Source: an uncultured Lachnospiraceae bacterium (GTDB taxonomy: Bacteria > Bacillota > Clostridia > Lachnospirales > Lachnospiraceae). Taken from it: a stretch of 44,669 nucleotides of DNA. Positions 8,291 through 44,669 of the stretch are shown one piece after another. Position 1 is the stretch's first letter; every line of letters begins with the position of its first letter. Under the pieces are notes generated by a model. That model saw only the letters and a program-made list of their open reading frames with translations. It made no database searches and was not told the origin of the DNA. Location of the stretch: positions 1-44,669 of the forward strand of contig CADATP010000010.1 of assembly GCA_902790935.1 (NCBI GenBank), in the 5' to 3' direction. The position numbers and the translations under genes were made by a program.

Positions 8291-8293
8291 AGA

Positions 8294-9139
8294 CTATTTA
8301 CCAAGTAAAATCCTTGCATAGGGCGTAAGACTGAAAATTACCGCCGTAAGGAAATTGTAATTCTTTAAAAGATAATGGAAAAACTCACCAAAGGGTACTC
8401 CCTTGATGCTTTCCTTTTTCTTAAATCTTTCGATGCGCTTTAGGGAAGGATCGTTCCAGGTTCCGGTAGTCGGATTGTTAGGGCAAACTCCGACATATTC
8501 GTCTGAAACGTAGATTTCTCCGCCCCTTCTTCCAAGCATATACCCGTAATCAAAGTCACCCAGGGAATGGTTATAAACGCTGTCCATTATTCCGGTCTTT
8601 ACGAATAAATCCGTGGGAATAAGTACGCAGTTTGCGTTAAAAGTATTTACCTTTCTCCCCTCTCTGGAATCAGCTTTTACTATCCTGAATTTCGGAGCGA
8701 AATTGGACTTTCTCGCTATTCCGCCGTAGGAAAGGCTTGTAAGATCATCCTCGCAGGTAGGCCCTACAAAAATGGCGTTTCGGACGCCTTTTTCATTGTA
8801 CCTCCGGACAAGTCCCGAGATTGCTCCGTCGTAGAAATCTACGTCATCATTAAAAAGCATTATAAAATCAGGCTTTGCCTCATCAAGCAGCTCAAGGGCT
8901 CTCTTCATAGCAAGCCTCATTCCGCCTGTATAAAATGAATTCCCATCCCCCATTACAACATATGTGTTGTCAAGTTCGCTAAGGGCTTCCGGCGTCCCAT
9001 CCTTACTGTTGTCGTCGCAGATGACGAATTCGAATTCTATATCAGGATTTCCTTCCACCAAGCTTTTAAGCGCCTGAAGAGTCTTGTCTTTTCGATTAAA
9101 ACAGGTCGCAAGACCCATCACTTTTATCTTTTTGTCCAT
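8294..9139 (-). CDS. GT2 family glycosyltransferase
   Basis: 281 residues and soluble, with a GT-A fold: MGLATCFNRKDKTLQALKSL at the N-terminus, VICDDNSKDGT near residue 38 and MLFNDDVDFYDG near residue 95 in place of DxD. The sequence GDFDYGYMLGRRGG near residue 190 is typical of rhamnosyltransferase-like GT2 enzymes, where the ED/DY region carries the catalytic base. It adds one sugar to the lipid-linked repeat unit in the cytoplasm. It sits between two membrane-protein genes with gaps of 3 bp on each side, so it is clearly in the same operon. The specific sugar is unknown. Confidence 0.88.
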   Translation of the reverse strand: MDKKIKVMGLATCFNRKDKTLQALKSLVEGNPDIEFEFVICDDNSKDGTPEALSELDNTYVVMGDGNSFYTGGMRLAMKRALELLDEAKPDFIMLFNDDVDFYDGAISGLVRRYNEKGVRNAIFVGPTCEDDLTSLSYGGIARKSNFAPKFRIVKADSREGRKVNTFNANCVLIPTDLFVKTGIMDSVYNHSLGDFDYGYMLGRRGGEIYVSDEYVGVCPNNPTTGTWNDPSLKRIERFKKKESIKGVPFGEFFHYLLKNYNFLTAVIFSLTPYARILLGK

Positions 9140-9142
9140 CTT

Positions 9143-10906: not shown

Positions 10907-12010
10907 TTAATTAACCTGTGTGTTCTCGCTCCGATCAAAGTATACATCGTAATCGTATTCTTCAATCAATTTCCAGAAATCTTCAACAGTCTTTTCGTAG
11001 TTTTCTTTTGTTAATCTGCTTTCTTTAGAGGCCATTCTTCTAAGAATTTCCGCAGAAGTCTCCGCTCCGAAATGCACCCTGTCAAAATAATTATCAAAGT
11101 TCGTTATTATATCTAAGTCATCCTCAAAATAGTACACATTGACATTCTCATACTCGAGAAGCCCCCCGATAAAGTATTTCTCCTCATCGGAAAGCAGCTT
11201 AAGGCTTCCGTCCTGTCTGTAATCATACCAATAGCAAATACTCCTTGGGGGAAAATAGATATAAAACTCTGTATCCGGGTGGTCTTTAAAAAATCCATCA
11301 AAATACAGATCAAAATTGGTACCGATTCTCTCTATTGATTCTTTTATGGAATCTTCATTCGCACCTACCACCTTATCTTTTTTCTCGAATCCGTCAAGAA
11401 CCCTCTCAGGTCCGAAAGTAAAATCCTGATAAGTACAGTAGTATTCGTTGGGATCCGTGGCGGAACTTCGATTGATGAAAGGCTTGATTATATAATCAAG
11501 CAAGACATCTTTGTTAAAAATATAAAAAACATCGTTAAAGGGATTTCTGTCATATAAATACTCCGGGAGAGGGTACTTTATCTCGTCGGGATAAGCCGAA
11601 AGGCTCGTTGTATCAACTCCCCAAAAGACAGCTTTAAGTCCGTTTCCCGAACTGTCGGCTAAAGTAAGTGCATTACTTATGTCCTTCGGATAAGCTCCGT
11701 TGTAGGGAAGCTTTACCGCGTCAAGCCCAAAACTATCCTTAAAATCCGATATCCTCATATTCACGGTCACGGAAGAACCAACGGATATAGCGTTATACTC
11801 TGTATTTGCCGCCAGCCCCGGATTCTGGCTTAATTGATCATCAATTATATATGGAAATCCCGAAAGAGGCTTGTGGTAATGGAAAAAGGGATCCACGATA
11901 ACCACAAGAGCGACTACTCCTGCTGCCAATAACGCCGCCGTAGCAAGGAATAATGCTAAAAATCCGCGATATTTACTTTTATCTGTCTTTATATTCTTTT
12001 CAAAAGCCAT
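10907..12010 (-). CDS. SGNH/DltD-like O-acyltransferase partner protein
   Basis: 367 residues. One N-terminal membrane anchor (LALFLATAALLAAGVVALVVIV, about residues 18-40) precedes an outside SGNH-like domain. The nucleophile block is SVGSSVTVNMRISDF near residue 97 and the His block is YFDRVHFGAETSAEIL near residue 325 (D-x-x-H). It is the second such protein in the locus and, like the first, sits next to an MBOAT gene (12060-13550, 49 bp upstream). Its central part resembles the middle module of the plus-strand protein at 4880-7021. It most likely receives an acyl group through the MBOAT and transfers it to the extracellular glycan. Confidence 0.8.
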   Translation of the reverse strand: MAFEKNIKTDKSKYRGFLALFLATAALLAAGVVALVVIVDPFFHYHKPLSGFPYIIDDQLSQNPGLAANTEYNAISVGSSVTVNMRISDFKDSFGLDAVKLPYNGAYPKDISNALTLADSSGNGLKAVFWGVDTTSLSAYPDEIKYPLPEYLYDRNPFNDVFYIFNKDVLLDYIIKPFINRSSATDPNEYYCTYQDFTFGPERVLDGFEKKDKVVGANEDSIKESIERIGTNFDLYFDGFFKDHPDTEFYIYFPPRSICYWYDYRQDGSLKLLSDEEKYFIGGLLEYENVNVYYFEDDLDIITNFDNYFDRVHFGAETSAEILRRMASKESRLTKENYEKTVEDFWKLIEEYDYDVYFDRSENTQVN

Positions 12011-12059
12011 TTATTTTTGCCATTCCAAGCTTCAAAAATCCTCTAAGCCGTATCAAATA

Positions 12060-13550
12060 TCAAAAATTGTAATAAATATAGGTCGATACCCCTGAAAGGC
12101 TTACAAAACACCATATAAACAGAAAAGCAAGTACTACGCCCTTCCATCTCTTCGGCTTAAACTTAGCCATTATATCCTTGCAATTTGGCGCAAAAACGAT
12201 CAGCGCAAGGGCCGCAAGAATATATAACGTGCAGAGGATCAATGCTCTCGTTCCGCTGTTATTTATATGAAATACCTTCAGAGCGTAATCAAGCTCCGGG
12301 GTTTGGAACATAGGAAGAAGATAGCTCTTGTTTAATGCGAAGGCTCTGTGCTCCGCAGCGGGGATAAGATGCTTTAAAAAGTTTACACTGTTTGCAAAGG
12401 TTTCCCCTTTAAAGAATACCCAGAAGACCGCCAGATAAACTGTATTAAATACCCAAAGGATAGCAGAAGTCACCTTATGGCTTTTTAGCATATCAAGAGG
12501 TTTTTCAAGGACTCGGCAAAGGATGATCCCAATTCCGCCGGATAATCCCCAGATGATATATCCGCTTCCGGCGCCGTGCCAGATCCCGCTGATCAAAAAT
12601 ACGATCAGGACATTGATATATGTTCTTACTTTTCCCTTTCGGCTTCCCCCAAGAGGAATATATAAATACTTCGTCAGAAATCTCGTAAGAGTGATATGCC
12701 ATCTTTTCCAGTAATCCCGCATAGTTACGGCTTTGTACGGCGAATCAAAATTGACTGGGATATCGATATTAAGCATCTTTCCGAGTCCGATTGCCATATC
12801 GCTGTAACCGGAAAAATCAAAGTAAATCTGTACATAATACGCAAACATCGCAAGGGCTGTATCTACAGGAGATAAAAGGTCTGTCGTAAGCCAGGCGTAA
12901 TCCACCGCCTTTGCGAAGATGTCCGCAATAAGGATTTTCTTTCCAAGACCGATTACAAAGCATGTTATACCCATGCTCATATTTTCGGCATTAATATGTT
13001 TTCTGCCTTCTTCGGCAAACTGCGGTATCATCTCGTCGTGGCTGACGATAGGTCCGGCTACAAGCTGCGGAAAGAAAGAAACGAAAAGCGCATAATCAAT
13101 GAATCTGTAATCCCCTGTTTCACCCTTGTAAGCATCTATAATAAATCCAACCTGCTGGAAGGTAAAAAAGCTTATACCCAAAGGAAGTAATATCTCGGGG
13201 ATATTCATTTCGGCCCCGGTCCAGACAGCGAAGCTTTTTAGGATATGTTCAAGATACTTGAAATATCCTAAAGTTCCAAGATTAAGCACTACCGTCGCGA
13301 TCATTAAGGCTTTGCGCTTTCTGCCTGCCGCCTTTTTCTTTGTAAGTAGCAGATAGGCAGCGTAATTAATCAGTATACTAAGAAGCAGGATAATTAAATA
13401 AGCCGGTCTGAAATATCCGTAAAACCAAAGGGACATTCCTATAAGAAAAACCTTTGCGATCTCCGGCTTCCCAAACTTATTAATGCCAAAATATCCAATT
13501 AGTGTGATCGGCAAAAAAGCCAATACAAAAATAAAGGAATTAAATAACAT
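12060..13550 (-). CDS. MBOAT family membrane-bound O-acyltransferase (second copy in locus)
   Basis: 496 residues, polytopic, starting MLFNSFIFVLAFLPITLIG as expected for AlgI-type MBOAT proteins. Signature blocks are FFPQLVAGPIVSHDEMIPQF, YFDFSGYSDMAIGLGKML, YWKRWHITLTRFLTKYLYIP and FLISGIWHGAGSGYIIWG with the conserved histidine. It pairs with the SGNH gene just downstream. It differs clearly from the MBOAT at 3239-4723, so the two are diverged paralogues rather than a recent duplication and could acylate different positions or with different acyl groups. It lies 13 bp downstream of a GT2 gene stop, in the same operon. Confidence 0.93.
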   Translation of the reverse strand: MLFNSFIFVLAFLPITLIGYFGINKFGKPEIAKVFLIGMSLWFYGYFRPAYLIILLLSILINYAAYLLLTKKKAAGRKRKALMIATVVLNLGTLGYFKYLEHILKSFAVWTGAEMNIPEILLPLGISFFTFQQVGFIIDAYKGETGDYRFIDYALFVSFFPQLVAGPIVSHDEMIPQFAEEGRKHINAENMSMGITCFVIGLGKKILIADIFAKAVDYAWLTTDLLSPVDTALAMFAYYVQIYFDFSGYSDMAIGLGKMLNIDIPVNFDSPYKAVTMRDYWKRWHITLTRFLTKYLYIPLGGSRKGKVRTYINVLIVFLISGIWHGAGSGYIIWGLSGGIGIILCRVLEKPLDMLKSHKVTSAILWVFNTVYLAVFWVFFKGETFANSVNFLKHLIPAAEHRAFALNKSYLLPMFQTPELDYALKVFHINNSGTRALILCTLYILAALALIVFAPNCKDIMAKFKPKRWKGVVLAFLFIWCFVSLSGVSTYIYYNF

Positions 13551-13563
13551 TTTGTTTATCCAA

Positions 13564-14565
13564 TCAAAGTCTCTTTATCCGCTTATGCACCTTTCTGACC
13601 GCCTTGGGGGCGATGACAAAAAGAGTCATATAAAGCTTATTTTTACCTGTAAGGAACTTGTTAAACAGTCCTTCAAAATAATGCTTTCGGAGCCATTTTA
13701 CTATCAGTCTGTAATCCTCAAAACATTCCGATTCCTTTTCCATCTTTGAAACCGGGATATGCAAAAGGTACTCTATTCTTTGGAAAATACCGAAACGGCG
13801 GACTATTTTGCTAAGCTCTTTATCCTCCGAATAATCCTTAAGGACGATTTCTTCCGCCATATCCGCATTATTAACCGAGTCCAAAAAAACCCTTGAAAAA
13901 TCTTCTTTTGACTGCTTTCTGGAATTGCTTCCGATACGGTAAAAAACATGGTATTTATAGCCGGGAAGCGATACTATCCTGCCAATCTCGGAAAGCTTTT
14001 TTATAAGGATGTGGAAATCCTCGTTAAGGACTCCTACCGGAAAGAACTCATCAGCCCCCTCAAAAACTTCCCTCGCTATAAGCTTCGTGCAAAAAGAGCA
14101 GTCCCCCCTGTGCATCAAAAGCTCCTTAAAAAAGTCCCTTGCGCTTATCACCTCTTCGGACTCGGGGGGAATACAGATGTCGGGTAATATATTTCCCTCC
14201 TCATCGATCTCGTTTCTTCCAACCTGAGCGCACTTAGCGTTATTCCGTACGATTGCCTCGTATAAAACCTCGTACATATCCGGCTCTATATAATCGTCGC
14301 TGTCAACAAATCCGATATACTCGCCGCTTGCTTCCTTGATCCCCAGATTTCTGGCGCTTGAAGATCCGCCGTTTTCTTTATGAAAAACCTTAACATTAGC
14401 ATTTAAAGATGCATACTCGTCGCAAACATCTCCGCTTCCATCGCTGCTGCCGTCGTCTACAAGGATGATCTCAATGTCTTTATAAGTCTGGGCAAGGACA
14501 GAATCAATGCATCTTTTCAGGTATTTACTTTGTATGTTGTAAACAGGTATGATAACGCTGATCAT
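13564..14565 (-). CDS. GT2 family glycosyltransferase (EpsJ/WcaA-like)
   Basis: 333 residues. A classic GT2 domain occupies the first ~220 residues: ISVIIPVYN at the start, LVDDGSSDGS near residue 35, ENGGSSSARNLGI near residue 64 and the DSDD metal motif in IGFVDSDDYIEPD near residue 90. The C-terminal ~100 residues are basic and helical. Such enzymes add single sugars to the undecaprenyl-linked repeat unit. The stop codon is 2 bp from the start of nothing upstream but only 2 bp downstream of the neighbouring GT4 gene's end (14568), showing tight operon packing. Sugar specificity is not deducible. Confidence 0.9.
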   Translation of the reverse strand: MISVIIPVYNIQSKYLKRCIDSVLAQTYKDIEIILVDDGSSDGSGDVCDEYASLNANVKVFHKENGGSSSARNLGIKEASGEYIGFVDSDDYIEPDMYEVLYEAIVRNNAKCAQVGRNEIDEEGNILPDICIPPESEEVISARDFFKELLMHRGDCSFCTKLIAREVFEGADEFFPVGVLNEDFHILIKKLSEIGRIVSLPGYKYHVFYRIGSNSRKQSKEDFSRVFLDSVNNADMAEEIVLKDYSEDKELSKIVRRFGIFQRIEYLLHIPVSKMEKESECFEDYRLIVKWLRKHYFEGLFNKFLTGKNKLYMTLFVIAPKAVRKVHKRIKRL

Positions 14566-14567
14566 AA

Positions 14568-15782
14568 TTAGTGTCCCGCCGCCTTTTTACTGATAGTTGC
14601 CTCCGTGCCGCCTTCGTCAACGCTTAAGGGGCCGCTTTCGTAGGGCGTAAAACCCTTCCCCTCAAAGAAATCGTCTATAAATCCTTTTAGCCTTTTTGCC
14701 GCCGTCTCCGGATTCCAGAGCCCCGTCACCGTCTCGTAAGCTGCTTTTCCAAGACGTTTTCTAAGGTTGCCATCGGTTACAAGCCTTTCGCATTTTTCAA
14801 AAAGCTCTGACGCGTCCTTGTTTTTATAAACGAATCCGTTCTCCCCGTCTTTTAGAAGATAGGGAACGGCCCCTATCATGCTTCCCGCCACTACAGCGCA
14901 GCCGCTGTTCATTGATTCATTTAATACAGCTCCCCAGCCTTCCTTACGGTCGCTGGTAAATAGATAAATATCCGCCTTTTCCATCATAGAGCGGATCTCT
15001 TCCGGCTTTTTAAACCCTGAGAGCTTAACCCTTCCGAGGAGTCCAAGTTCCTCTGCCATGCCGCGTATTTTGTCCTTTTCCGGGCCGTCTCCCACGATAT
15101 CCATTGTAAAGTCGTATCCCTTATCCTTAAGATACTTAGCCGTTAAAACAGCCATCTCCGGATGCTTCCAGTCAAGCATTCTTCCGGACCAAAGGATGTT
15201 TACATGTCCGTATCCCTTGGCCTCAAGTAGACTGTCTATATCGTAGCTTTTAACCTCGGGAAAATATCCCCATTTATACTTCTTTCCTTTATAAGCCCCA
15301 AACAAAGAAAAATCAGACGCAACATACCCGCCGGAGCAAAGAAGATAAACCGGCAAATCGTTGTATCTGGTGTGATCTAAGTATTTCTTTCTAAGGCCCT
15401 TGGGAGTTATAAACTTCCACTGCCCCTCTTTGTACACTCTCTCGGAGTATCTGAAGGTCAGGTACTTTTTATCATCAGCGCTCCCCTCTTTCAAAGCCTC
15501 AAGCCTCGGCGCTATATAGCTCTCATCCTCGCACCCCCCGAAAATAACAACTTCGCTTTCAAAGATAAGCTCTCTGCAGGCCTTTTTCTCTTCATCGGAG
15601 ATATACGAGAGTCTGACGAACTCCGGAATTTCCTTATCCCACCCCATTTTCTTTCGGTCATCTTCCATTTCCTGCGTCTGGATAAAGGTAAACTGATCTC
15701 CCTCAGAAAGGTTACCGATCATCGCCCTGCAAAAGGGTATCTGGTGGTGGTTTATGTAATTAGATACAAATGTGATCCGCAT
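14568..15782 (-). CDS. GT4 family glycosyltransferase
   Basis: 404 residues with a GT-B fold of two Rossmann-like halves. The C-terminal half carries NILWSGRMLDWKHPEM (near residue 195), DIVGDGPEKDKI, and the GT4 nucleotide-sugar block with the E-x7-E pattern in RKEGWGAVLNESMNSG near residue 285. It retains the anomeric configuration and adds a sugar to the growing repeat unit at the membrane. The N-terminus reads MRITFVSNYINHHQIPF, typical for this subfamily. It lies between a GT2 gene (2-bp gap) and another GT4 gene (11-bp gap). Confidence 0.9.
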   Translation of the reverse strand: MRITFVSNYINHHQIPFCRAMIGNLSEGDQFTFIQTQEMEDDRKKMGWDKEIPEFVRLSYISDEEKKACRELIFESEVVIFGGCEDESYIAPRLEALKEGSADDKKYLTFRYSERVYKEGQWKFITPKGLRKKYLDHTRYNDLPVYLLCSGGYVASDFSLFGAYKGKKYKWGYFPEVKSYDIDSLLEAKGYGHVNILWSGRMLDWKHPEMAVLTAKYLKDKGYDFTMDIVGDGPEKDKIRGMAEELGLLGRVKLSGFKKPEEIRSMMEKADIYLFTSDRKEGWGAVLNESMNSGCAVVAGSMIGAVPYLLKDGENGFVYKNKDASELFEKCERLVTDGNLRKRLGKAAYETVTGLWNPETAAKRLKGFIDDFFEGKGFTPYESGPLSVDEGGTEATISKKAAGH

Positions 15783-17176: not shown

Positions 17177-18659
17177 CTTTATCAGATCCTTTAGCGGTCT
17201 TAGTATCGTTATAGCTAACGCTGTCCTCGTATTTGTTCTCAGCCATAGCCATATAGAGGTCTTTCATAGCCGTAGTCTGTCCGGGGTCAACCCCTTCCGT
17301 GGAATCGGGCCAAAAGATTATCTTAAGTGTCAGCATCATCAGCTTAAGGTCAAGAAGGACAGAATAGTTCTCAATGTAAATAAGATCAAGCTTAAGCTTA
17401 TCGTAAGGAGTCGTATTGTACTTGCCGTAAACCTGTGCAAAGCCTGCAAGTCCGGCTTTAACTTTAAGTCTGTAGGCAAACTCCGGCATCTGCGCCTGGT
17501 ATTTTTCGATAATCTCAGGTCGCTCCGGTCTGGGACCGATAAAGCTCATATCACCCGCCAAAATATTGAAAAGCTGAGGCAGCTCGTCAAGCCTTACCTT
17601 ACGGATAAACCTTCCGATCGGTGTAACTCTCTTGTCGCCGATATAGTAAAGTCTGACACCGTCTTTTTCCGCATCAACTCGCATTGAGCGGAACTTTACA
17701 ATTTTGAACTGCTTTCCTCCTCTTGTCACACGGACCTGTTTGTAAAGAACCGGGCCGCCGTCGTAGGCCTTAACAAGGATAGCTGTTATAAGCATAAAAG
17801 GCGAAGTAAGTACTATCAGGATAAGGGAAAATACAATATCCATAAGTCTTTTAACAAATCTTTGCTCCATAGTCATCGAGTACTCTCTTGTAAGGAGCAT
17901 CGGAGTATCAAAGACATGGAGCTCTTCGGATCCCTTAAGGATACAATCGTTTATCTTGGGTAAAACATAGAATCTGATTGAATTGCCGTAGCAGTATTTG
18001 ATAAGAGGTTTCCTGTCCGACTCGGCTATATCTCCGAATACTACAGCGTTGCAGACGCCTTCCTGGTAATACTTCTTTATCGTCTCCGTAACCTTTTTTG
18101 TTCCCTCGCTGATGTGGATCTGTTCCGTAATAAGATACTTATCGCTTCTTGTTTCGAATTTGCGCCTAAGCTCTCTGGGGTCTCTGTCCCCGTGAACAAG
18201 TAAAAGCTTCCTGGGTGGGAATATATTCCTGTAAAAGAAATTAGCGATATTTATATATATAAATACAACTATGCACTGAGTAAGGAGCATCACAACAAAG
18301 TATTTAGGATTGAACAATCTCAGCGCCATCAGCGAGATCTCGGCATAGATAAGGATGTCCGCCATAACGGTGGCGAAAATCTGCGAGAAGATCAGCTCGG
18401 CATTTTTCATATATCCGAGTCTCATTCCTCCGTACATATTCGAGAAAAGAATAAGTATTACGAAATATACCGCCACCTCGAGCATATGTCCCTTGATCCA
18501 GAAGGGCTGGTTGCGTCCCGCGATAATTGATACTCTGAAATTAAAATACCAATGGTAAGTAAATACCGCAGTCTCCAAAAGCAGGCAAAGTAAAACAAGC
18601 GAAAGATTAATGATTCGCTTGAAACCTTCCATTCGATTTAATCTACTCTGAGTGGTCAT
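17154..18659 (-). CDS. Exopolysaccharide polyprenyl glycosylphosphotransferase (WbaP/CpsE family)
   Basis: 501 residues. Four or five N-terminal membrane helices (residues about 15-135) are followed by a nucleotide-binding-like middle region (LLVHGDRDPRELRR) and a C-terminal bacterial sugar transferase domain from about residue 265. That domain holds KRLMDIVFSLILIVLTSPF as the re-entrant helix, KFRSMRVDAEKDG, the catalytic DE in VRLDELPQLFNILAGDMSFI, and GPRPERPEI. The enzyme transfers a sugar-1-phosphate from UDP-sugar to undecaprenyl phosphate and so starts repeat-unit synthesis. It is the first minus-strand gene of the glycan operon, with a GAGG ribosome-binding site and an extended -10 promoter candidate upstream. 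Two plus-strand genes diverge from it. Confidence 0.94.
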   Translation of the reverse strand: MTTQSRLNRMEGFKRIINLSLVLLCLLLETAVFTYHWYFNFRVSIIAGRNQPFWIKGHMLEVAVYFVILILFSNMYGGMRLGYMKNAELIFSQIFATVMADILIYAEISLMALRLFNPKYFVVMLLTQCIVVFIYINIANFFYRNIFPPRKLLLVHGDRDPRELRRKFETRSDKYLITEQIHISEGTKKVTETIKKYYQEGVCNAVVFGDIAESDRKPLIKYCYGNSIRFYVLPKINDCILKGSEELHVFDTPMLLTREYSMTMEQRFVKRLMDIVFSLILIVLTSPFMLITAILVKAYDGGPVLYKQVRVTRGGKQFKIVKFRSMRVDAEKDGVRLYYIGDKRVTPIGRFIRKVRLDELPQLFNILAGDMSFIGPRPERPEIIEKYQAQMPEFAYRLKVKAGLAGFAQVYGKYNTTPYDKLKLDLIYIENYSVLLDLKLMMLTLKIIFWPDSTEGVDPGQTTAMKDLYMAMAENKYEDSVSYNDTKTAKGSDKDENTLDV

Positions 18660-18696
18660 AAAACATCCTCACAAAATGCGTACAAAATCTCATCTA

Positions 18697-18705
18697 ATTT
18701 TAGCA
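18697..18705 (-). promoter_or_regulatory. Putative extended -10 promoter of the glycan operon
   Basis: On the minus strand the sequence reads TGCTAAAAT, an extended -10 element about 35 bp upstream of the glycosylphosphotransferase ATG at 18659. No good -35 is visible at 16-18 bp. This is the only sizeable gap upstream of the long co-directional run 18659 to 7040, which makes it a reasonable place for the main promoter. It is a pattern match only. Confidence 0.4.
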
Positions 18706-18803
18706 TACTTAGGGTCTTTATACCATAAACCCCATTCTTAAGATTCATTAATAAAGTGCGTAATATTGCGCCTTTATCGGTCCTTTATGCTATAATTGCT
18801 TTT

Positions 18804-19880
18804 ATGAAAACAATACTTTGCATAGCGTTCCTTCTCCTTTGCCCGATCATACTCGGACTCGGAACCGTAACAGCCTACAACAAAATATCATCGGTTCTTT
18901 CCAAAAGAGCCTCTCTTCCTCAAAAAAAGCCTTTTATTGTAAGGCTTTGCGCCTACTATTCCGCCGGCTTTATGGAGCTGTTTCTTTTGGCGGGAGTAAC
19001 CAATGCTTTGGGAGTCTTTTTATCTCTCACATTTTCCGCAACCGTAAAAGTGTTTGCGCTTTTGCTAATTGCTGTCCTCACCTTTGCGTATCTTGTTTTT
19101 ATACTACTTAAATTTGCATCGTTAAAAAACAGGACTTCTGCTGCAAGCGGAGCTTCTAAAGATGCCAAGGATTCTAAAGAAGACAAAACATCTTCAGACA
19201 GATACTTTATCCTTTTCCTTATCATTTCGCTGTTCTTTTCAGCTTTGGCGCTTTTTATAACCCTTAGGGGCAAAATCTACCTAAGCGGGGATCAGACCGT
19301 AGAAACCGTTAATTCGTTTCTTTCTTCCAATGAAATGTACAACGTAAATCCCTTGACGGGACTTCCTTATGACGGTGATCACCCTTCAAGGCTTGATTAT
19401 ATGTTCCTGCCGTTTTTCTATGCGCTTTTGTGCCGTACATTTAAGCTTAGCGCAATGAAGCTTTTGTACCATATCATTCCGGCAGTCTATGCAGTCTGCG
19501 CTTTCTCTCTTTTTGTAACCGTTGGTGATGCTTTCTTTTTTGAGCGAGCCGGTGAAAACGACCTTTCGGGCGTTTATCCCAAGACTAAAGTTACTTTGTT
19601 TTATATGATCTGCGTATTTTTACTCTTTTGCTGCGGCAGCGCTGCGGGAAGTATCTCTTTTAATCTCTTCCACTCAGGGTTCAGAAGCGGAACTTTCCTT
19701 ATCCTCTTACTTGTAAATTACTGCCTTGCCATGTGCATAAAAAAAAGATGGGCCGCGTGCCTTATCCCTATTGTTTTAGAGCCTCTCGCGGCATCCACTA
19801 AATTCGGGATCGGCGCCTGCTTTGTTATGACCGCCTCTCTTTTTGTAATTTCAAAAATCAGAAAAAAGGAGGAAAAGTAA
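18804..19880 (+). CDS. DUF6077-like polytopic membrane protein, N-terminal part
   Basis: About 358 residues from the ATG at 18804; a GTG at 18756 would add 16, and neither start has a Shine-Dalgarno. The protein has about eight membrane segments and a loop reading SGDQTVETVNSFLSS near residue 165, followed by GDHPSRLDYMFLPFFYALLC. I associate this layout with the DUF6077 membrane family of Lachnospiraceae, but that assignment is from memory. A TGCTATAAT extended -10 lies at 18788-18796, which would put the transcript start at or next to the ATG. The gene ends with TAA directly joined to the ATG of the next gene, which reads like the missing C-terminal half of the same protein. Function is unknown; surface-glycan assembly is suggested by location. 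Confidence 0.65.
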   Translation: MKTILCIAFLLLCPIILGLGTVTAYNKISSVLSKRASLPQKKPFIVRLCAYYSAGFMELFLLAGVTNALGVFLSLTFSATVKVFALLLIAVLTFAYLVFILLKFASLKNRTSAASGASKDAKDSKEDKTSSDRYFILFLIISLFFSALALFITLRGKIYLSGDQTVETVNSFLSSNEMYNVNPLTGLPYDGDHPSRLDYMFLPFFYALLCRTFKLSAMKLLYHIIPAVYAVCAFSLFVTVGDAFFFERAGENDLSGVYPKTKVTLFYMICVFLLFCCGSAAGSISFNLFHSGFRSGTFLILLLVNYCLAMCIKKRWAACLIPIVLEPLAASTKFGIGACFVMTASLFVISKIRKKEEK

Positions 19881-37999: not shown

Positions 38000-39877
38000 T
38001 CATCCGATCAAAACTTTTTTCCCTTCAAAAGCAAAGCCATAATGATGGATATTCTTTTTTAGTATTCCTTTGGAAAGCAATTGCGCATCATAGCCTTTTT
38101 CATCTATTTGCTTTAACGCGTTTTTAACAGTATCCTCCAAAGTTTTTTCATCGTCAGGATCGTGAACTTTAAACTCTAAAACATATGCCTGATCCCTTTT
38201 ATCTTTCGGTTCGAGGCAAACATCATATCTGCCGAATCCGCTCTCTCTGTTCGAAGTAATAAAGTATTTTTCGGATAAATCCACCATAAGTCCTAAGACA
38301 AACCCATGGTAAAACCTTTCCGGCTCATATTTTTCGGAAGAACTCTTTCCGACATCAAAAACCGAGAAAGTGTTAAGAGCTATATCGTTCATAAAACGGT
38401 TCATGTACTTAACATCATTTAATAAGAGTGCTTTGATAAAATCATTGTATCTTACATTATCGCTTTCAAACCAGCGCTTTATCATATCTTCAAAGGTATG
38501 CTTTACTTCAAGATTTGTGAGTGACAAGCTGCTCTTTTTTCGCACGCCGCGCTCCTGTAATACGGCATCGACCTTTAGATAACCCGCCGCCAAAAGCAAG
38601 CTAAAAATACCGGATTCATTTTTATCTATCAGATTAAAAACTATCTCATCGTCAATAAGGGTCTCAACCGGCTCGCCCTTAAGCAGGCATTCCATCGCTG
38701 TTTTAACATCAGCGCTTCCTTCTTTTATAAGTTTATCAACAAGCGAATTCTCGCTTGTATTCGACCAATAATTGTCCAGTCTTTCGGAATCTAAAAACTG
38801 CGTCACCGACCATGGATTATACATTTCGGATACATCGCCGATCCTGAATCCGTCATACCATTCTTTTACCTCGGCGAACACCTCCGCCATTCCATACCGC
38901 TTAAGCTCTGCCTTAACCTCGCTTTCAGTAAAGCCGAAATCAGTGGCATACTTCGCATTCGTTACAGCATCTACTTTAAGATTGTTCAAATCCGAAAAAA
39001 TAGATTCTTTACTTATTCTTGTAATTCCGGTTAAAATCGCTCTCTCTAAGTACCTGTTTGTTTTAAAGGTTGCATTAAACAGATTTCTGACAAATCCCGT
39101 CATTTCTCCCCAAAAGCCGTCAATATAAGCCTCCTGGATCGGAGTGTCGTATTCGTCCATAAAAACAAGCGCTTTTTTTCCGTAATATTTATACATCATT
39201 TCACACAGAAATCTGATCGCTTCGGTAGCTATAGCATCCGACATATCGTAGCCTACCATATTCCAGAAATCTCTGTCCATCTGTGTGATCAGATCAGACT
39301 CGAAAATATGCCCATTGTTCCTATAGAGACCGACGATCTCCTGGACAATCTGTTGTCTGGCTGTGTCATATGTGTTTCCTTTAACAGAGGCAAAGCTCAA
39401 ATAGATTACAGGATATCCGCCTATCATCTTCCGATAATCCGGATATTTCCAGATAGCAAGACCTTTAAACCAGTTCTCACCTTTTTGGTACTTATTTGAA
39501 AAAAAGCAGTCCAACATACTAAGGTTCAGAGTTTTTCCAAATCTGCGCGGTCTTGTGATCAATGTCACAACGTCGCCACTCTCCCACCACCTTTTAATAA
39601 ACTCCGTTTTATCAACGTAAAAGTAATTGTTCTCCCTGATTGCCGCAAAATCCTGGTTGCCGATGGAGATTTCACTACGAGATCCGGCGCCTGCACCATA
39701 TTCGTCCATCGACTCCTCTAAAGCGAAAATAGTAGTTTCTCTCGGGGAGTCAATCTTCCCTCCAAGTACTTTCTGGACAGTACTTAACGGGAGCCCCGAC
39801 CTTTCAGATATTTGTTCATATGTAAGTTTTAGTTCTTTCTTCTTTTTTTGTAATTCTTGTATTCTGGAATATTGCAT
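38000..39877 (-). CDS. HTH-AAA ATPase-PD(D/E)XK (DUF1703) protein
   Basis: 625 residues. An N-terminal XRE-like helix-turn-helix (LTYEQISERSGLPLSTVQKV, residues 18-37) is joined to an AAA-ATPase-like domain with Walker A RPRRFGKT at 109-116 and Walker B ALVFMDEYDTP near 235, then a C-terminal PD-(D/E)XK domain with the Asp in GFGRYDVCLEP and the ExK in YVLEFKVHD near 570. The last two domains are the common AAA-ATPase_like plus PDDEXK_9 pair of anaerobes, thought to be mobile or defence-related. The fused HTH suggests DNA binding and self-control; palindromic ATTGCAAT elements lie immediately upstream. Biological role not established. Confidence 0.88.
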   Translation of the reverse strand: MQYSRIQELQKKKKELKLTYEQISERSGLPLSTVQKVLGGKIDSPRETTIFALEESMDEYGAGAGSRSEISIGNQDFAAIRENNYFYVDKTEFIKRWWESGDVVTLITRPRRFGKTLNLSMLDCFFSNKYQKGENWFKGLAIWKYPDYRKMIGGYPVIYLSFASVKGNTYDTARQQIVQEIVGLYRNNGHIFESDLITQMDRDFWNMVGYDMSDAIATEAIRFLCEMMYKYYGKKALVFMDEYDTPIQEAYIDGFWGEMTGFVRNLFNATFKTNRYLERAILTGITRISKESIFSDLNNLKVDAVTNAKYATDFGFTESEVKAELKRYGMAEVFAEVKEWYDGFRIGDVSEMYNPWSVTQFLDSERLDNYWSNTSENSLVDKLIKEGSADVKTAMECLLKGEPVETLIDDEIVFNLIDKNESGIFSLLLAAGYLKVDAVLQERGVRKKSSLSLTNLEVKHTFEDMIKRWFESDNVRYNDFIKALLLNDVKYMNRFMNDIALNTFSVFDVGKSSSEKYEPERFYHGFVLGLMVDLSEKYFITSNRESGFGRYDVCLEPKDKRDQAYVLEFKVHDPDDEKTLEDTVKNALKQIDEKGYDAQLLSKGILKKNIHHYGFAFEGKKVLIG

Positions 39878-39891
39878 AAGGCTTCTCCTCT

Positions 39892-40016
39892 TATTGCAAT
39901 TTTACGCCACAAATAGCAATATTGCAATATTTTCAATAGCAAATAGCGATTTAATTGCAATATCGGCAGAACATTCTCAAAAAACTATATTTCTAAAATA
40001 TCCTCAATATTGCATT
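39892..40016. repeat. Cluster of ATTGCAAT-type palindromic elements (candidate operator)
   Basis: The gap upstream of the AAA gene holds ATTGCAAT at 39893-39900, a perfect 14-bp palindrome AATATTGCAATATT at 39918-39931 and ATTGCAATAT at 39954-39963; a related CAATATTGCA occurs at about 40005-40014. The repeated core around a single intergenic region fits an operator bound by one of the two adjacent HTH proteins. Confidence 0.6.
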
Positions 40017-40626
40017 TTAAGGCCTTGCTCAGGCGAAGCAGTGTTTCAGCCTGACATTTATTAATATCTCGCTGCCTCTGTTCAAACAACTGAATCTGTC
40101 TAAGCGGAACATCCGAAATCTCGGATAATTCCTTTTGAGTAATCCCGGCGTACTTTCTGATAATGCTAAGTCTTGTTCCGGTACCTCTAGAGGCAGTTTT
40201 CTTATCAACCTCATCGACAAACTGCATGATATCCATCTCGTGAAATACAGGATACATATTAAGCAGTTCTTCTATTGATATGTATTCAAATATCCTCTCG
40301 AAGCTTTTGCCACTGTACCACTGATAAAACGCTATAGCCCATCCGCTCCAGTATTCCGGGCTCTTGTCCAAGTACATTTCTTCCGCAGGAATTTTTATAC
40401 TTAATCCCGATTCCTCGACCATTTTAATAAAAAGCTCGCAGCCGGTCATTCCGGCAACATATGAGGGATTTCCCTTCTCAAATTGGCGGATACTACTTGA
40501 CGTGATCATCATTTTTTGAAGCGTCTCCGGCGATACTCCGGCTGTAACCATCGCAAAATCAAAGAGGTCTCCCATTATTCTTCTTGCTGATTCAAAGTAC
40601 TCCTCATCGTAAGCGTGGATCACCAT
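39985..40626 (-). CDS. HTH domain protein, candidate antitoxin to the DUF3990 protein
   Basis: 213 residues. The N-terminal ~135 residues are helical with SSIRQFEKGNPSYVAGMTG and SPEYWSGWAIAFYQWYSGKS, a pattern I know from genes beside DUF3990 proteins. The C-terminal ~70 residues are an XRE helix-turn-helix (AGITQKELSEISDVPLRQIQ; DINKCQAETLLRLSKALKCN). It overlaps the end of the DUF3990 gene by 23 bp, the coupling seen in toxin-antitoxin pairs. It likely binds its own promoter or the ATTGCAAT elements nearby. The antitoxin role is inferred from layout. Confidence 0.75.
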   Translation of the reverse strand: MVIHAYDEEYFESARRIMGDLFDFAMVTAGVSPETLQKMMITSSSIRQFEKGNPSYVAGMTGCELFIKMVEESGLSIKIPAEEMYLDKSPEYWSGWAIAFYQWYSGKSFERIFEYISIEELLNMYPVFHEMDIMQFVDEVDKKTASRGTGTRLSIIRKYAGITQKELSEISDVPLRQIQLFEQRQRDINKCQAETLLRLSKALKCNIEDILEI

Positions 40627-41281
40627 TTTTGATACCCTCTCTCATGATATCCAAGATATAAATATCATTAATATCCGCCGATGCAGCTTTTGTCTGACGA
40701 TATGCGCGTCTGGCCAAGGCGTCTCTGTTAGCTTTTTTGATTGAATATTCCTCCGCCAAAGCAAGCTCATTACCAATATACTTGATGCGTTCAAATGCCC
40801 TCTTGCTCTTAAGGACAATCTGCTCTCCGAGTCTTCCCAGTCTCATAGCTTCGGAAAGCTTTCCAAGAGATATTGTGCCGGAAACAAAATCCTGCGCAAA
40901 TGAGAAATACGAATCGTCCGCTCTGTAACCAATGATCACGTCGTAACCGGATATATCTACAGCGAAGTTATCCATCAGGTACTGCTTGCGTGCTTCAGCT
41001 GCAGGTACATACGCTTCATCTGTACGATGTTTCAGTACGGTAGCCGCCCACTCCAGCAGGGTGTGATCCTGTGCTGTGAAGTCAAGTACCTGCAAGTCAT
41101 CGATATGCAGGGAATAGCTGTTAATGATACCGTCTTTTGCCGCCCGGCAGGCCCACTCATGCGCCAGATCCCTTGACGGCGTGACATAAAAGCCCGCGCC
41201 GAAATCGTGATGCGCTCCATGGGTATGTACGGGCTCCTCAATGATACGATCTGAGCCATGATATACCGTTATCGTCTTCAT
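40604..41281 (-). CDS. DUF3990-like protein, possible ADP-ribosyltransferase-fold toxin
   Basis: 225 residues. The N-terminus has TITVYHGSDRIIEEP then HDFGAGFYVTPSRDLAHEWA (residues about 3-46), the DUF3990 signature; I recall this family in the ADP-ribosyltransferase clan, where the YHGS and GFYVT segments resemble NAD-binding elements. Catalytic activity is not shown. Hand counts give about 54% GC for 41041-41280 (coding the N-terminal part) and about 45% for 40681-40920, so the gene is compositionally mosaic. Its ATG overlaps a TGA of a short upstream frame (ATGA) and has only a weak ribosome-binding site, as if once coupled to another gene. Confidence 0.78.
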   Translation of the reverse strand: MKTITVYHGSDRIIEEPVHTHGAHHDFGAGFYVTPSRDLAHEWACRAAKDGIINSYSLHIDDLQVLDFTAQDHTLLEWAATVLKHRTDEAYVPAAEARKQYLMDNFAVDISGYDVIIGYRADDSYFSFAQDFVSGTISLGKLSEAMRLGRLGEQIVLKSKRAFERIKYIGNELALAEEYSIKKANRDALARRAYRQTKAASADINDIYILDIMREGIKNGDPRLR

Positions 41282-41372: not shown

Positions 41373-43727
41373 TCATGCAAAATACAGCTCATGGCAGAAA
41401 ACGCCCTGTGGAACGTAGTCTTTGGCCTTGCATGCCAAATCAGCGAGGCGTGTCGTTATTGGCAGACGGACGTTCCACGTGGATCTGGGGTCCACCTTTG
41501 TCAAGGCATATATCTGCTGTAAACCAGTCAGCAGCGGCACATCGCCGCATGTTTTGGTAATCTGGATAGGACGCTGAGCACCATGATATGGATGTGTTGT
41601 AACCATATAGGCACTTTGACGCACCTCATCGATCAGCACCTTACCGATATCCGGATTGACTACCTTGTGTCCATTTACGCCCATGATACGTGGCGCACCA
41701 CTTTTCCGCACCTCAAAAATGGAATAAGCGATGCCAAGACTTGCAAAGTATTCCTTGTACCAGTCATCGTCCTCATGGGAGAAGCCATCCCTATGGATAA
41801 CGATGGTGGAAGGGTATGTGCCCATCTCCTTACGGTAAGCCGTCAAAATACTGCCAAACATTTCCTCAAGGCAGGCCGTGGTTATTTTTTCACCTTTAAT
41901 AGCCTTGGAAGTCTGAATGAACCCCAGATACTTGCCAGCACCTGTTACTGCTACACTGCATGACGGATAGTGGATACCAGCCTCCTGTGTCCCTACGTCT
42001 ATGCCAATAAACAGGTCCGGTTTTTCCGGAAGGTCGGCCAGCGCAAAGGGAACGCCACCTGTTTTAACGATAAGTCCCAGAACCACATTGCCAGCGGTAT
42101 ATATAGGATTTTTTTGTACACCAGGCTGACCGCAATAGGTTTTTACCATATCCAGTGCATGCCCATACTCAATCATCTGTGTTGGACACATGCGCTTGGC
42201 CGCTGCTTTTTTCAGCCCTTCCCGCACGCGGCTGCTTTCTTTCTGCGTCGCACGCGGCAACACACAGAGCATTGCCTGCACATTAGGGCAATTCTCTTTA
42301 GCCATGTCGGCTATTTCCTCAAAGTACAAGGGTTTGTTCAAAGTATCAGTTTGCAGGGCTATGTACTCCGGATCTAAGTACCCCTTTCCTGCAGGAAGGT
42401 TTGCCTTCAATCCGCCAGATACATAGAGGTAGCTCAACAATGGTATGTAATCTATCTCCGGTGGCGCTACAACAGTAATGTGATACTTCTCATCGTCCGC
42501 AAGGCGAGGCGGCTGAAAACACCCTGCCCCTCTTAGGACCTGCGACTTTGAAGATGAAGAAACGATTTCCTGCCCGCCGATGACGATTTTAGGTTCTGCG
42601 AAGGTTTCAAGCCTATGACCAATATCTTGTGGAGCCACAGGAACAACTGAAAAAGAGAGGTTGTCAAATTCAGCAATCTTCCCTATGTGTGACAGAATTG
42701 TCTTATCCTGTGCATAACGCACCCCCATATGACGTTTGCTGGCCTCGAGTGCAGTAGCAGAAAACCGGCTATCCAGCGACCGCAGGATTTCCGTAGTCAT
42801 AATCGGCCTTACAGTACCTGTCAAGAAGGAAAGCACGTCGCCACGATGATTCATCAGGAACACTACCTCATCATCTTTGGGATCAGTGTCAACGAACCGT
42901 TTGATCATCTCCAGGTCATATTGCCTATAATGTTCAAGTATCTCTTCCCGATTTTTGTATTCAAATTTGTCTTTCTGAATATCTTTTTCATCAACGATAT
43001 GCCCCGTAAATTGGTATACAGGCAGGACATATTTGAATTGCAGGCCCATATCATTATACAGACTCAGCTTATCACCATATTCCTTTTTGAATGTATACAG
43101 CGTATGAGTATAGAGAAAATGCGTATGCGTATCCAGCTCAAGGAATACAGTTCCATCCGGCCTAACATGCGGAGCGTAATTGACCTCCAAAGTAACGCGG
43201 AATTTAGGATTTGCCGAAGATGAGACCACTTCATTAAATTGCAGTCTGCCATTTTTATCATGGTAAAGCCGGTCCGTAACCACGCTTTTCTCAAGCGGAC
43301 GATATATCTTGCGGATTCTCCCTGCATTGTCATTGTAGGTGGGGATAAGCAAGTTACGGTGGATAAGGATTGAGAGATACTGCTCATAGACCTGCGTATT
43401 GCTCAATGGCACCTCTTCCCTGCCTCTCGGCGTCAGCTCCACGGTGATCTGGCTCTTGCGCCCTTCTTTGGTGCATTCCTTCTGGTGCACCAGCAGATCG
43501 TCTCTCACAGCCTTCTGCGTATAGATGCGTTTATAGTCCGTTACAGCCTTATAATCTTCGTAACTATGGTATGCATTCAGGAACCGCAGCTCTGTGTTAA
43601 AGGCCGTATGCAAACTGCTGTCTTTAGACTGCTCACTGCTTGTTACGGTGACATCATATACGAAGAATGCTAACGGTTTAATTTTTTCGGAACCGCGATA
43701 CATTTCGCATCTAACCTCTTTTGTCAC
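41373..43727 (-). CDS. Long-A prokaryotic Argonaute with intact DEDD catalytic tetrad (CbAgo-like)
   Basis: 784 residues, full length for a long pAgo. N-terminal and linker regions (1-200), PAZ (about 200-320; HRGDVLSFLTGTVRPIM), MID (about 415-560; VVAPPEIDYIP, CPTQMIEYGHALDMVK, GLIVKTGGVPF) and PIWI (about 570-784) are recognisable. The RNase H-like tetrad is complete: Asp577 (GIDVGTQ), Glu613 (KGEK), Asp647 (VIHRDGF) and Asp763 (RLADLACK). The C-terminus ends in aromatic YFA, as usual for guide 5'-end placement. The PIWI segment resembles Clostridium butyricum CbAgo, which uses DNA guides to cut DNA, so nuclease activity is likely. The start is GTG with AGGAGGG six bases before it. It follows an RNA ligase gene by 67 bp; guide type is unknown. 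Confidence 0.95.
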   Translation of the reverse strand: MTKEVRCEMYRGSEKIKPLAFFVYDVTVTSSEQSKDSSLHTAFNTELRFLNAYHSYEDYKAVTDYKRIYTQKAVRDDLLVHQKECTKEGRKSQITVELTPRGREEVPLSNTQVYEQYLSILIHRNLLIPTYNDNAGRIRKIYRPLEKSVVTDRLYHDKNGRLQFNEVVSSSANPKFRVTLEVNYAPHVRPDGTVFLELDTHTHFLYTHTLYTFKKEYGDKLSLYNDMGLQFKYVLPVYQFTGHIVDEKDIQKDKFEYKNREEILEHYRQYDLEMIKRFVDTDPKDDEVVFLMNHRGDVLSFLTGTVRPIMTTEILRSLDSRFSATALEASKRHMGVRYAQDKTILSHIGKIAEFDNLSFSVVPVAPQDIGHRLETFAEPKIVIGGQEIVSSSSKSQVLRGAGCFQPPRLADDEKYHITVVAPPEIDYIPLLSYLYVSGGLKANLPAGKGYLDPEYIALQTDTLNKPLYFEEIADMAKENCPNVQAMLCVLPRATQKESSRVREGLKKAAAKRMCPTQMIEYGHALDMVKTYCGQPGVQKNPIYTAGNVVLGLIVKTGGVPFALADLPEKPDLFIGIDVGTQEAGIHYPSCSVAVTGAGKYLGFIQTSKAIKGEKITTACLEEMFGSILTAYRKEMGTYPSTIVIHRDGFSHEDDDWYKEYFASLGIAYSIFEVRKSGAPRIMGVNGHKVVNPDIGKVLIDEVRQSAYMVTTHPYHGAQRPIQITKTCGDVPLLTGLQQIYALTKVDPRSTWNVRLPITTRLADLACKAKDYVPQGVFCHELYFA

Positions 43728-43733
43728 GTCAAT

Positions 43734-43740
43734 CCCTCCT
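43734..43740 (-). promoter_or_regulatory. Ribosome-binding site fixing the GTG start of the Argonaute gene
   Basis: AGGAGGG on the minus strand, six bases upstream of the GTG at 43727. It is the strongest such site nearby and supports GTG over the internal ATG at codon 9. Confidence 0.85.
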
Positions 43741-43795
43741 ACGATGCTCAGCTATTAACGAATAGTACTGCTAAACCAAACGCAACACGTTTTTG

Positions 43796-44669
43796 CTACC
43801 TGTTTTCATCTATACCCCCATCTGCTTCTTCTGCGGATTTCAGGAACTCCTCCACCTCTCGGAACTTCAGGAAATGCTCTGGTTTCGTCTCCAGCAGATT
43901 GTAAGAGAGACCCTTGCGCTTCAGGAACATATAGTGCGCAATGGTCTTGTCAACCGTGCTATATACCTTAGCGGCAAACTCCCTGAGGTCAGTAATACTT
44001 GCCAGTGATGCGTAGGCGCTCTCTATCTTGTCATTTTTCAGCTGCAGATAGCGCTGCACCATATCAAAGATCTTCTGCAGGCGCTCATGGCAGGACATTG
44101 GCATCTTCGCCAGCAGGTCATCAAACGTGCCGCGTGCGATGGCCTTGATAACCGCGTCAGGTGAAGCATAACGGCTCAGGACGGCATGCAGATCAAGGTA
44201 ATCGGTGCATTTCAGTTTGTACATGGACGTACCTGCAGCCGTATGCAGATAGAGCACCCATCCTTCCTTTTGATTAGCGGGTATACGCTCGCGCTGCTGC
44301 AGGCATTCATCAAGGCTGTTCCCTTCAAAGGCCGTAATGGGTACGTCGTATTGCTTGGCATACTCCTCCAGTTCACGATAAGGGGCCAGCCGCCCGGTGA
44401 GTATATCCCGTGCGCCGATCAGGTAGATATCCTGCTCCTGCTCTGTATATTCCACTACGTGCTTGTCGTTCCACGAGATGTACTCAAAGATGAAGGTCAT
44501 ATCCGGATGCTCCCGCAGCATGCGTTGATGGCCTGCTGTCATCCAGCCCTCCGCTTCCTGCAGGCGGAAGGAAATGCTCTTGTCAATGCAGCCCGTGCCC
44601 GCAAGGAAAATCTGTCCGTCATACCAGCGTACCGATACCATGGACCCGTCCAGCTTGTTGGTGATTTCC
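43796..44669 (-). CDS. T4 Rnl1-family RNA ligase (5' end outside window)
   Basis: The open frame continues past the right edge: codons upstream of the first internal ATG (44641) read EITNKLDGS, which is nucleotidyltransferase motif I with the AMP-accepting lysine (44654-44656). The internal ATG is therefore not the true start. Motif III/IIIa reads FEYISWNDKHVVEY and IYLIGARDILTGRL, motif IV EGWVLYL (44266 on), and motif V KLKCTDYLDLH. After motif V, about 130 helical residues match the Rnl1 C-terminal domain. Such ligases join RNA 3'-OH and 5'-phosphate ends using ATP; phage T4 Rnl1 repairs cut tRNA. It is 67 bp upstream of the Argonaute gene in the same direction. GC is about 55% by hand count of three lines, above the neighbouring chromosome. 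Its N-terminal part is not visible. Confidence 0.9.
   Translation of the reverse strand, partial: EITNKLDGSMVSVRWYDGQIFLAGTGCIDKSISFRLQEAEGWMTAGHQRMLREHPDMTFIFEYISWNDKHVVEYTEQEQDIYLIGARDILTGRLAPYRELEEYAKQYDVPITAFEGNSLDECLQQRERIPANQKEGWVLYLHTAAGTSMYKLKCTDYLDLHAVLSRYASPDAVIKAIARGTFDDLLAKMPMSCHERLQKIFDMVQRYLQLKNDKIESAYASLASITDLREFAAKVYSTVDKTIAHYMFLKRKGLSYNLLETKPEHFLKFREVEEFLKSAEEADGGIDENR

Follow-up and report, generated by a model that had tools for sequence, protein, structure and literature searches.

The window (the whole stretch of 44,669 nucleotides of Lachnospiraceae DNA that we analysed) closes on two adjacent genes of the minus strand. The upstream one is the 3' part of a T4 Rnl1-type RNA ligase gene (43796..44668; 290 aa, open at its 5' end), and the downstream one encodes a long-A prokaryotic Argonaute of 784 aa (41373..43727) with a DEDD tetrad and an RK-type 5'-phosphate pocket. 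A preliminary description of this DNA had correctly placed the ligase directly upstream on the same strand, but the gap that it gave as 67 bp comes to 68 bp by the ORF coordinates (43728..43795, minus strand). This spacer holds a Shine-Dalgarno-like GGAGG, 7 nt upstream of the GTG start codon of the Argonaute, and no terminator-like site on the minus strand; such sites are in excess across the region (8 observed vs 3.2 expected), with none in the two spacers. Folding of the 68-bp gap as RNA is no better than that of shuffled sequences (z-score 0.38). A promoter-like site inside the ligase gene (43953-43926) was discounted, the region having 4 such sites vs 6.7 expected. Perhaps the ligase and the Argonaute are co-transcribed. 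Next to them, also on the minus strand, are a DUF3990 ADP-ribosyltransferase-like gene (40604..41281) and the gene of an HTH protein (39985..40626), which overlap by 23 bp and which PADLOC reports as adjacent PDC-M42A (1.4e-40) and PDC-M42B (1.1e-08), a candidate defence pair. An AAA-ATPase-like / PD-(D/E)XK protein (38000..39877, minus strand), whose N-terminal HTH scores under the Pfam cut-off, marks the edge of the variable locus. No tRNA genes were found within the window.

The contig ends at 44669 and the ligase frame runs past it; as the ORF begins at about residue 130 of the nearest relatives, about 130 N-terminal residues are missing. The source assembly consists of 94 contigs and is 82.7% complete. 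The last 150 bases of the contig have only chance matches (<30 bases) elsewhere in this assembly, and a whole phage ligase used as query matched only the known contig-end part, although a short N-terminal piece could escape such a search because the phage query is only 32% identical. Neither a kinase nor a Hen1 gene lies within the window, the DNA upstream of the ligase being beyond the contig end, and a Pnkp query found no match in the incomplete source assembly.

In the sister species G877, the flanking DNA is 95–98% identical up to 40959 and then diverges; the segment 40960..44669 has no counterpart there at the same site, and G877 has no match to either the Argonaute or the ligase. While the left limit of this segment is the end of DNA identity, its right limit is simply the contig end. 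The break in identity falls inside the DUF3990 gene, whose protein is 44/106 identical to that of G877 in its N-terminal half and 113/118 in its C-terminal half, with a reading frame that is intact and homologous on either side. The ligase has a GC3 of 0.65 and the Argonaute one of 0.50, compared to 0.41–0.53 for 13 core genes, but this difference is a hint only, because the two genes have the same low codon-usage index (0.63; core genes 0.68–0.79). A phage origin of the whole locus is ruled out by the core chromosomal genes of the contig, which we take to include glmM and phosphofructokinase, and by the synteny of the left flank in a comparison with eight genomes of the same genus.

The upstream protein is an RNA-repair ligase of the Rnl1 type. 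The residues K5, D7 and G8, E62, E135 and G136, and K151 and K153, which belong to nucleotidyltransferase motifs I, III, IV and V, are invariant in all 27 rows of an alignment of the window ligase with 26 relatives. It passes the cut-off of Pfam PF09511 (RNA_lig_T4_1; 5.4e-10, 39.9 bits vs 28.3) and matches phrog_562 (1.8e-35); with NCBIfam TIGR02308 (1.3e-15) the incomplete protein reaches 57.5 bits, below the equivalog cut-off of 242.25. T4 Rnl1 provides the top three PDB matches (2c5u, 5tt6, 9do4) to the predicted structure (pLDDT 91), although the TM is only 0.46 and the rmsd 11.9, and the N-terminal part is missing. As modelled, with helices between residues 155–251 and at 269–282, the nearest solved fold is Rnl1 with its C-terminal helical region. 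The Rnl1-type identity read earlier from the sequence is correct.

In the 27-row tree, the window ligase groups in a mostly phage Rnl1 clade of 17 rows (support 100/99). The tree takes in 16 of 20 viral loci, leaving out L051 (which looks the same as L049), the contig-cut L059 and the weak L063 and L064, along with 6 of 25 phage records, 1 of 3 plasmid records and, out of eight other genomes with a ligase, G1001, G1063 and G351; among the viral loci, L002 repeats L016 and L003 repeats L015. Leaving aside the window ligase, 14 of the 16 clade relatives have a polynucleotide-kinase-type gene in their locus. It is downstream of the ligase in 13 of these 14, if not always as the next gene, and upstream in one (L056). 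The nearest relative of all is on a 281-kb phage contig, whose record contains, at other positions, a single kinase-like ORF as well as 15 tRNA genes. The nearest bacterial ligases (39–40% identity) are those of G1001, where ligase, kinase, Hen1 and Pnkp are consecutive, and of G1063, where matching ORFs have the same order.

As the preliminary description had proposed, the Argonaute is of the catalytic long-A, CbAgo type. Its tetrad (D577/E613/D647/D763) occupies invariant columns (of 14 aligned sequences, 12 went into the model, two distant ones being dropped), and it matches Pfam Piwi (3.7e-17) and PADLOC pAgo (1.7e-112). CbAgo (6qzk) is the best fold match to the predicted structure (pLDDT 73.6, pTM 0.75), with TM 0.80/0.84 over 811 aligned columns, and judged over the whole model a full-length N-PAZ-MID-PIWI fold is predicted. 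The identity to 11 members of the CbAgo/CpAgo group is 24–29%, outside the 37–68% found among these members themselves, which keeps it out of the subgroup proper; by sequence placement it is a deep side branch of that group, with one known member. The 5'-phosphate guide pocket (R502, K506, Q517, K555) fits the Y/R/H-K-Q-K pattern, with R502 replacing the stacking tyrosine of 11/11 aligned CbAgo-group members (RK vs YK). According to excerpts of PMC6299218, such RK variants are known in subsets of long-A Argonautes, and TtAgo, which was shown with a DNA guide, also has R at this position. We therefore rejected the RK pocket as proof of RNA guides, since it does not imply them.

Does the pair recur? 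The Argonaute was found in 1/31 genomes of a genus sample, 3/200 of a family sample and 1/398 of a phylum sample (own genome counted each time), and a pattern scan of contigs from 84,980 species gave 13 relatives at 13 loci, although altered copies may have been missed because the patterns required exact motifs. None of these searches produced a second copy of its branch. There was no Argonaute in viral contigs and one in 50,697 phage records; 42 plasmid records matched, none covering 80% of the query, and the three plasmid records with a ligase match are absent from the best 40 of the 42. Rnl1-like ligases are also rare (order 2/295, class 5/391, family 4/397, own genome included), and some of these matches are weak: that of G1070 sits in a response-regulator-like protein, and neither G1070 nor G920 has a phmmer match to the window ligase. 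In the eight other genomes with a ligase, that gene never has an Argonaute as its neighbour. Conversely, the flanks of the 13 other Argonaute loci, some of them short, contain no ligase-like ORF (0/13), and just one of the 13 genomes has an Rnl1-like ORF anywhere, which is about 205 aa long and lies some 45 kb away from its Argonaute. The pair is thus a single case, and the "two-gene unit" of the preliminary description is not upheld by conservation. That description would have put the pair down to chance if homologous Argonautes almost never had an Rnl1 neighbour; for the CbAgo group this is what we find (0/13 loci), but the finding does not extend to the Argonaute's own branch, which has one known member.

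We think it probable, though well short of certain, that separate defence and repair modules have been adjoined by shuffling in a variable locus, where they may share a transcript without a dedicated partnership. The kinase-linked relatives of the ligase, the CbAgo-like fold of the Argonaute, the ligase-free flanks of the other Argonautes, the variability of the locus, the PDC-M42A/B neighbours and the GC3 contrast all support this. The segment with the Argonaute and the ligase would have arrived beside a resident ADP-ribosyltransferase/HTH pair in a Lachnospiraceae chromosome. The Argonaute is predicted to load short 5'-phosphorylated guides and to cleave invader DNA, or possibly RNA, that matches them. 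The ligase, for its part, would self-adenylate on K5, accept 5'-phosphate and 3'-hydroxyl ends and reseal cellular RNA, most likely tRNA that nucleases cut when phages infect the cell; a partner kinase/phosphatase would be encoded either upstream, beyond the contig end, or at another site. Such a role in tRNA or RNA repair, put forward before, fits the kinase, Hen1 and Pnkp neighbours of the ligase relatives, so that the earlier interpretation is supported in part. The lack of a kinase in the window, and of a Pnkp match in the incomplete assembly, counts against the repair reading. Moreover, the same strand, the 68-bp gap and the terminator-free spacer would also suit a unit, and chance adjacency of two genes as rare as these (3/200 and 4/397) in one genome is unlikely.

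Alternatively, the two genes could form a dedicated pair in which the Argonaute fills the place of the polynucleotide kinase, and the ligase either joins or circularises RNA pieces made by the Argonaute or reseals its off-target cuts in self RNA. We consider this unlikely. RNase H-type cutting by an Argonaute yields 5'-phosphate and 3'-hydroxyl ends, and for Rnl1 to join these no kinase is needed. Such ends are what ATP-grasp RNA ligases require (PMC7824862, in excerpt), and the position downstream of the ligase, held by a kinase in most of its relatives, is taken here by the Argonaute, on a shared strand and 68 bp away. However, no second case turned up in the genus, family and phylum samples or the 84,980-species scan, the GC3 values differ, the missing DNA may include a kinase gene upstream of the ligase, the order seen in L056, and the studied prokaryotic Argonautes prefer DNA targets, according to PMC6299218. 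More doubtful again is the bolder proposal that the Argonaute replaced the polynucleotide kinase as the Rnl1 partner in a deep CbAgo-group branch, giving a first Argonaute-RNA ligase machine; if true, the Argonaute would supply ligase-ready ends, and guided cutting and joining would yield circular or chimeric small RNAs or a proofreading of its own cuts.

We give little credence to an assembly artefact, in which two pieces of DNA would have been fused into a chimera across a DUF3990 stretch common to both, and the Argonaute/ligase segment would come from a different part of this genome or from another one. The identity to G877 does stop within DUF3990, the contig within the ligase, and the composition shifts, but an intact DUF3990 frame, homologous on both sides, is what homologous recombination would leave, and the Argonaute-ligase junction sits inside the segment and would stand regardless. 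Finally, a part for the ligase in producing or recycling the RNA guides of an RNA-guided Argonaute, for instance through the ligation of fragments up to guide length, is very improbable: R502 and the RK pockets of other long-A proteins would suit such guides, but TtAgo has the same arginine and a DNA guide, and the literature matches listed name no ligase in bacterial Argonaute guide making.

Among the literature matches listed, none describes an RNA ligase gene as the neighbour of a prokaryotic Argonaute gene, though an earlier mention is possible; the word "ligase" is absent from the main text of a 2018 survey of Argonaute operons (PMC6299218). Were the two proteins to cooperate, this would be a guided cutter equipped with a sealing enzyme of its own. 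If adjoined modules are all that we have here, the locus is still notable for its Argonaute, which has an unusual guide pocket and stands alone as a deep branch of the mesophilic group that has been studied best, and for the presence of an RNA-repair ligase of phage type in a bacterial defence locus. With CbAgo and CpAgo (Clostridium butyricum and C. perfringens) the window Argonaute shares the full-length fold, the DEDD tetrad and MID-PIWI sequence similarity, but it differs in its low identity, its R502, its RNA ligase neighbour and its extra N-terminal sequence (784 aa vs 744 aa in two compared members). The ligase resembles that of the phage Rnl1-PNK pair (T4 type; Bacillus phage vB_BauM_KLEB27-3, IMG/VR records) in motifs, T4 Rnl1 fold and clade, yet it is bacterial-chromosomal and the next gene downstream encodes an Argonaute instead of a kinase. 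The bacterial Pnkp-Hen1 and Pnkp1-Rnl-Hen1 systems (PMC4411300, in excerpt) are echoed by the G1001 and G1063 ligases, which adjoin kinase, Hen1 and Pnkp, whereas the window has no Hen1 or kinase and the incomplete assembly no Pnkp. In the haloarchaeal APAP, as excerpts of PMC11442185 describe it, an accessory enzyme gene likewise adjoins a catalytic long-A Argonaute; there the accessory belongs to the PLD nuclease family and recurs in 28/63 Argonaute-bearing haloarchaeal species, whereas here it is a ligase in a single case.

At the right end of the window the genes follow one another in transcription order on a single strand (minus). First comes an RNA ligase gene that runs off the contig (44668-43796; ORF and Pfam), then the Argonaute gene (43727-41373; ORF and Pfam). 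The next three were assigned with Pfam: an ADP-ribosyltransferase-like DUF3990 gene (41281-40604), an HTH gene (40626-39985) that shares 23 bp with DUF3990, and lastly one for an AAA-ATPase/PD-(D/E)XK protein (39877-38000). The minus-strand spacers on either side of the Argonaute are short, 68 bp towards the ligase and 91 bp towards DUF3990. Since our scan of the 68-bp spacer found no terminator-like site, ligase and Argonaute may be on a common transcript. This neighbourhood is real and unusual; as a system it is unproven. Each enzyme adds a member to a known family, and the adjacency of an Argonaute and an Rnl1 ligase is new, seen once.

The preliminary description had presented the two genes as a unit, a claim that gains no support from the comparison with 13 other Argonaute loci (11 of the CbAgo group and 2 distant): none has a ligase-like ORF in the flanks examined, some of which are short (e.g. 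L013, L014, L017). One of those 13 genomes does contain an Rnl1-like ORF (~205 aa), ~45 kb from its Argonaute. A second member of the window's Argonaute branch was found neither in the genus, the family sample or the phylum sample, nor in a scan of 84,980 species genomes with exact motif patterns, which is hence incomplete; the word "ligase" is absent from the main text of the 2018 Argonaute survey (PMC6299218). Of the sampled family genomes, 3 of 200 have an Argonaute of this kind and 4 of 397 an Rnl1-like ORF (the window's genome included in both counts), and the independent presence and adjacency of both would be rare in any single genome. Because genes for defence cluster, and this pair was presumably one choice among many windows read, a single occurrence is not enough to establish a unit. 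The only "phage" record with such an Argonaute (L006, MT835890.1, 9194-11428) is probably a mislabelled bacterial scaffold, since the Argonaute and its neighbours are nearly identical to those of a Fusicatenibacter locus (L016) and a nearby gene is, we assume, urease-like.

Ligase and Argonaute are carried by an accessory segment, at a variable site that adjoins the PADLOC candidate defence pair PDC-M42A/B. This follows from the sister species G877, whose 95-98% identity reaches from the core genes into DUF3990, as far as ~40959, and then gives way to divergent sequence, and from seven other genomes of the genus, none of which has any of the window's accessory genes beside larB (for several, the stretch compared is short or stops with the contig). 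Neither the Argonaute nor the ligase finds a match in the sister genome; beyond its DUF3990 gene come a 145-aa ORF and another that is presumably flagellin-like. With the identity break inside it, DUF3990 is a mosaic gene between the sister species (window 40604-41281 vs 7261-7938 of the sister locus L097): 44 of 106 residues are identical in the N-terminal half, which may have been swapped cassette-like, and 113 of 118 in the C-terminal half. Within the identical stretch the sister carries one additional AAA-ATPase/PD-(D/E)XK gene, its two adjoining copies (L097 2877-6559) sharing 99% and 25% identity with the only copy of the window. Judged by codon-usage index (0.63 for ligase and Argonaute alike; core genes 0.68-0.79) and GC3 (ligase 0.65, Argonaute 0.50; 13 core genes 0.41-0.53), both genes look acquired; that they differ in GC3 is no more than a hint of separate origins.

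That the ligase is of the Rnl1 type, as first proposed, is borne out by its RNA_lig_T4_1 match (Pfam, 5.4e-10), by T4 Rnl1 as the best PDB sequence match and the top three matches of the predicted fold, and by motif residues invariant across 27 aligned rows. With a TM of 0.46 and an rmsd of 11.9, the match of the predicted fold is one of kind, not of detail. Against the NCBIfam T4 RnlA equivalog the protein, which lacks its N-terminal part, scores 57.5 bits, under the 242-bit cut-off; the sequence present starts shortly ahead of motif I, and near relatives are ~130 residues longer. The window is the complete contig C10, and the missing part did not turn up elsewhere in the 94-contig, 82.7%-complete assembly.

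In the ligase tree (27 rows) the window enzyme falls within a 17-row clade (support 100/99), where its closest relative comes from a 281-kb phage record (pair support 96/90). For 14 of its 16 clade relatives the stretch examined includes a polynucleotide-kinase-type gene, which lies downstream of the ligase at 13 loci and upstream at 1. The two loci without one are L045 and L057, the latter from that phage record, which has one kinase-like ORF and 15 tRNA genes away from the ligase locus; the tRNA genes and the ORF (L121 of G1462, 7622-15313 and 18279-19724) lie ~3 kb apart, and the ORF is ~45 kb from the ligase. Both bacterial clade members are inside a repair cluster: ligase, kinase-HD, Hen1 and Pnkp are consecutive in G1001 (L040 7232-15480), with a TROVE/Ro60 gene upstream, and the corresponding ORFs of G1063 (L041 315-6541) have the same order (Pfam was run on G1001 only). 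Each cluster has two RNA ligases, Pnkp having its own ligase domain. In a bacterium of the window's own family (G172, L069 567-2726) another Rnl1-like ligase directly adjoins a polynucleotide-kinase-type gene, an RNA-repair pair with no Argonaute within the 15 kb examined. Work on jumbo phages (PMC7824862) describes Rnl1 ligases as accompanying polynucleotide kinases, repairing cleaved tRNAs and requiring 5'-phosphate and 3'-hydroxyl ends.

From what is known of the two families, the Argonaute would be a guided nuclease against invaders and the ligase would rejoin the cell's own RNA, with tRNA as the likeliest substrate, once infection has triggered its cleavage; nothing shows that either depends on the other. 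An alternative worth testing is that the Argonaute supplies the ends: its place downstream of the ligase is that of the kinase in most relatives and, as Argonaute cuts leave 5'-phosphate and 3'-hydroxyl ends, sealing by Rnl1 without a kinase is conceivable.

As for the putative guided nuclease itself, its initial description as a long-A Argonaute with a full DEDD tetrad stands: the tetrad is D577, E613, D647 and D763, Piwi is matched at 3.7e-17 (Pfam), and the top PADLOC profile is pAgo (1.7e-112; next PprPIWI, 1.3e-94). At the guide-pocket position where the 11 CbAgo-group members have tyrosine it carries R502, the other pocket residues K506, Q517 and K555 being retained; according to the 2018 survey (PMC6299218), RK is among the pocket variants of some long-A subsets, and TtAgo carries R there. 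Overall, the Argonaute is of the long-A kind and outside the CbAgo subgroup proper. It is like that group in predicted fold (mean pLDDT 73.6), which resembles CbAgo and CpAgo across the full length (TM 0.80/0.84 vs CbAgo), but unlike it in having arginine for tyrosine and in sharing only 24-29% identity with the 11 members, which are 37-68% identical among themselves.
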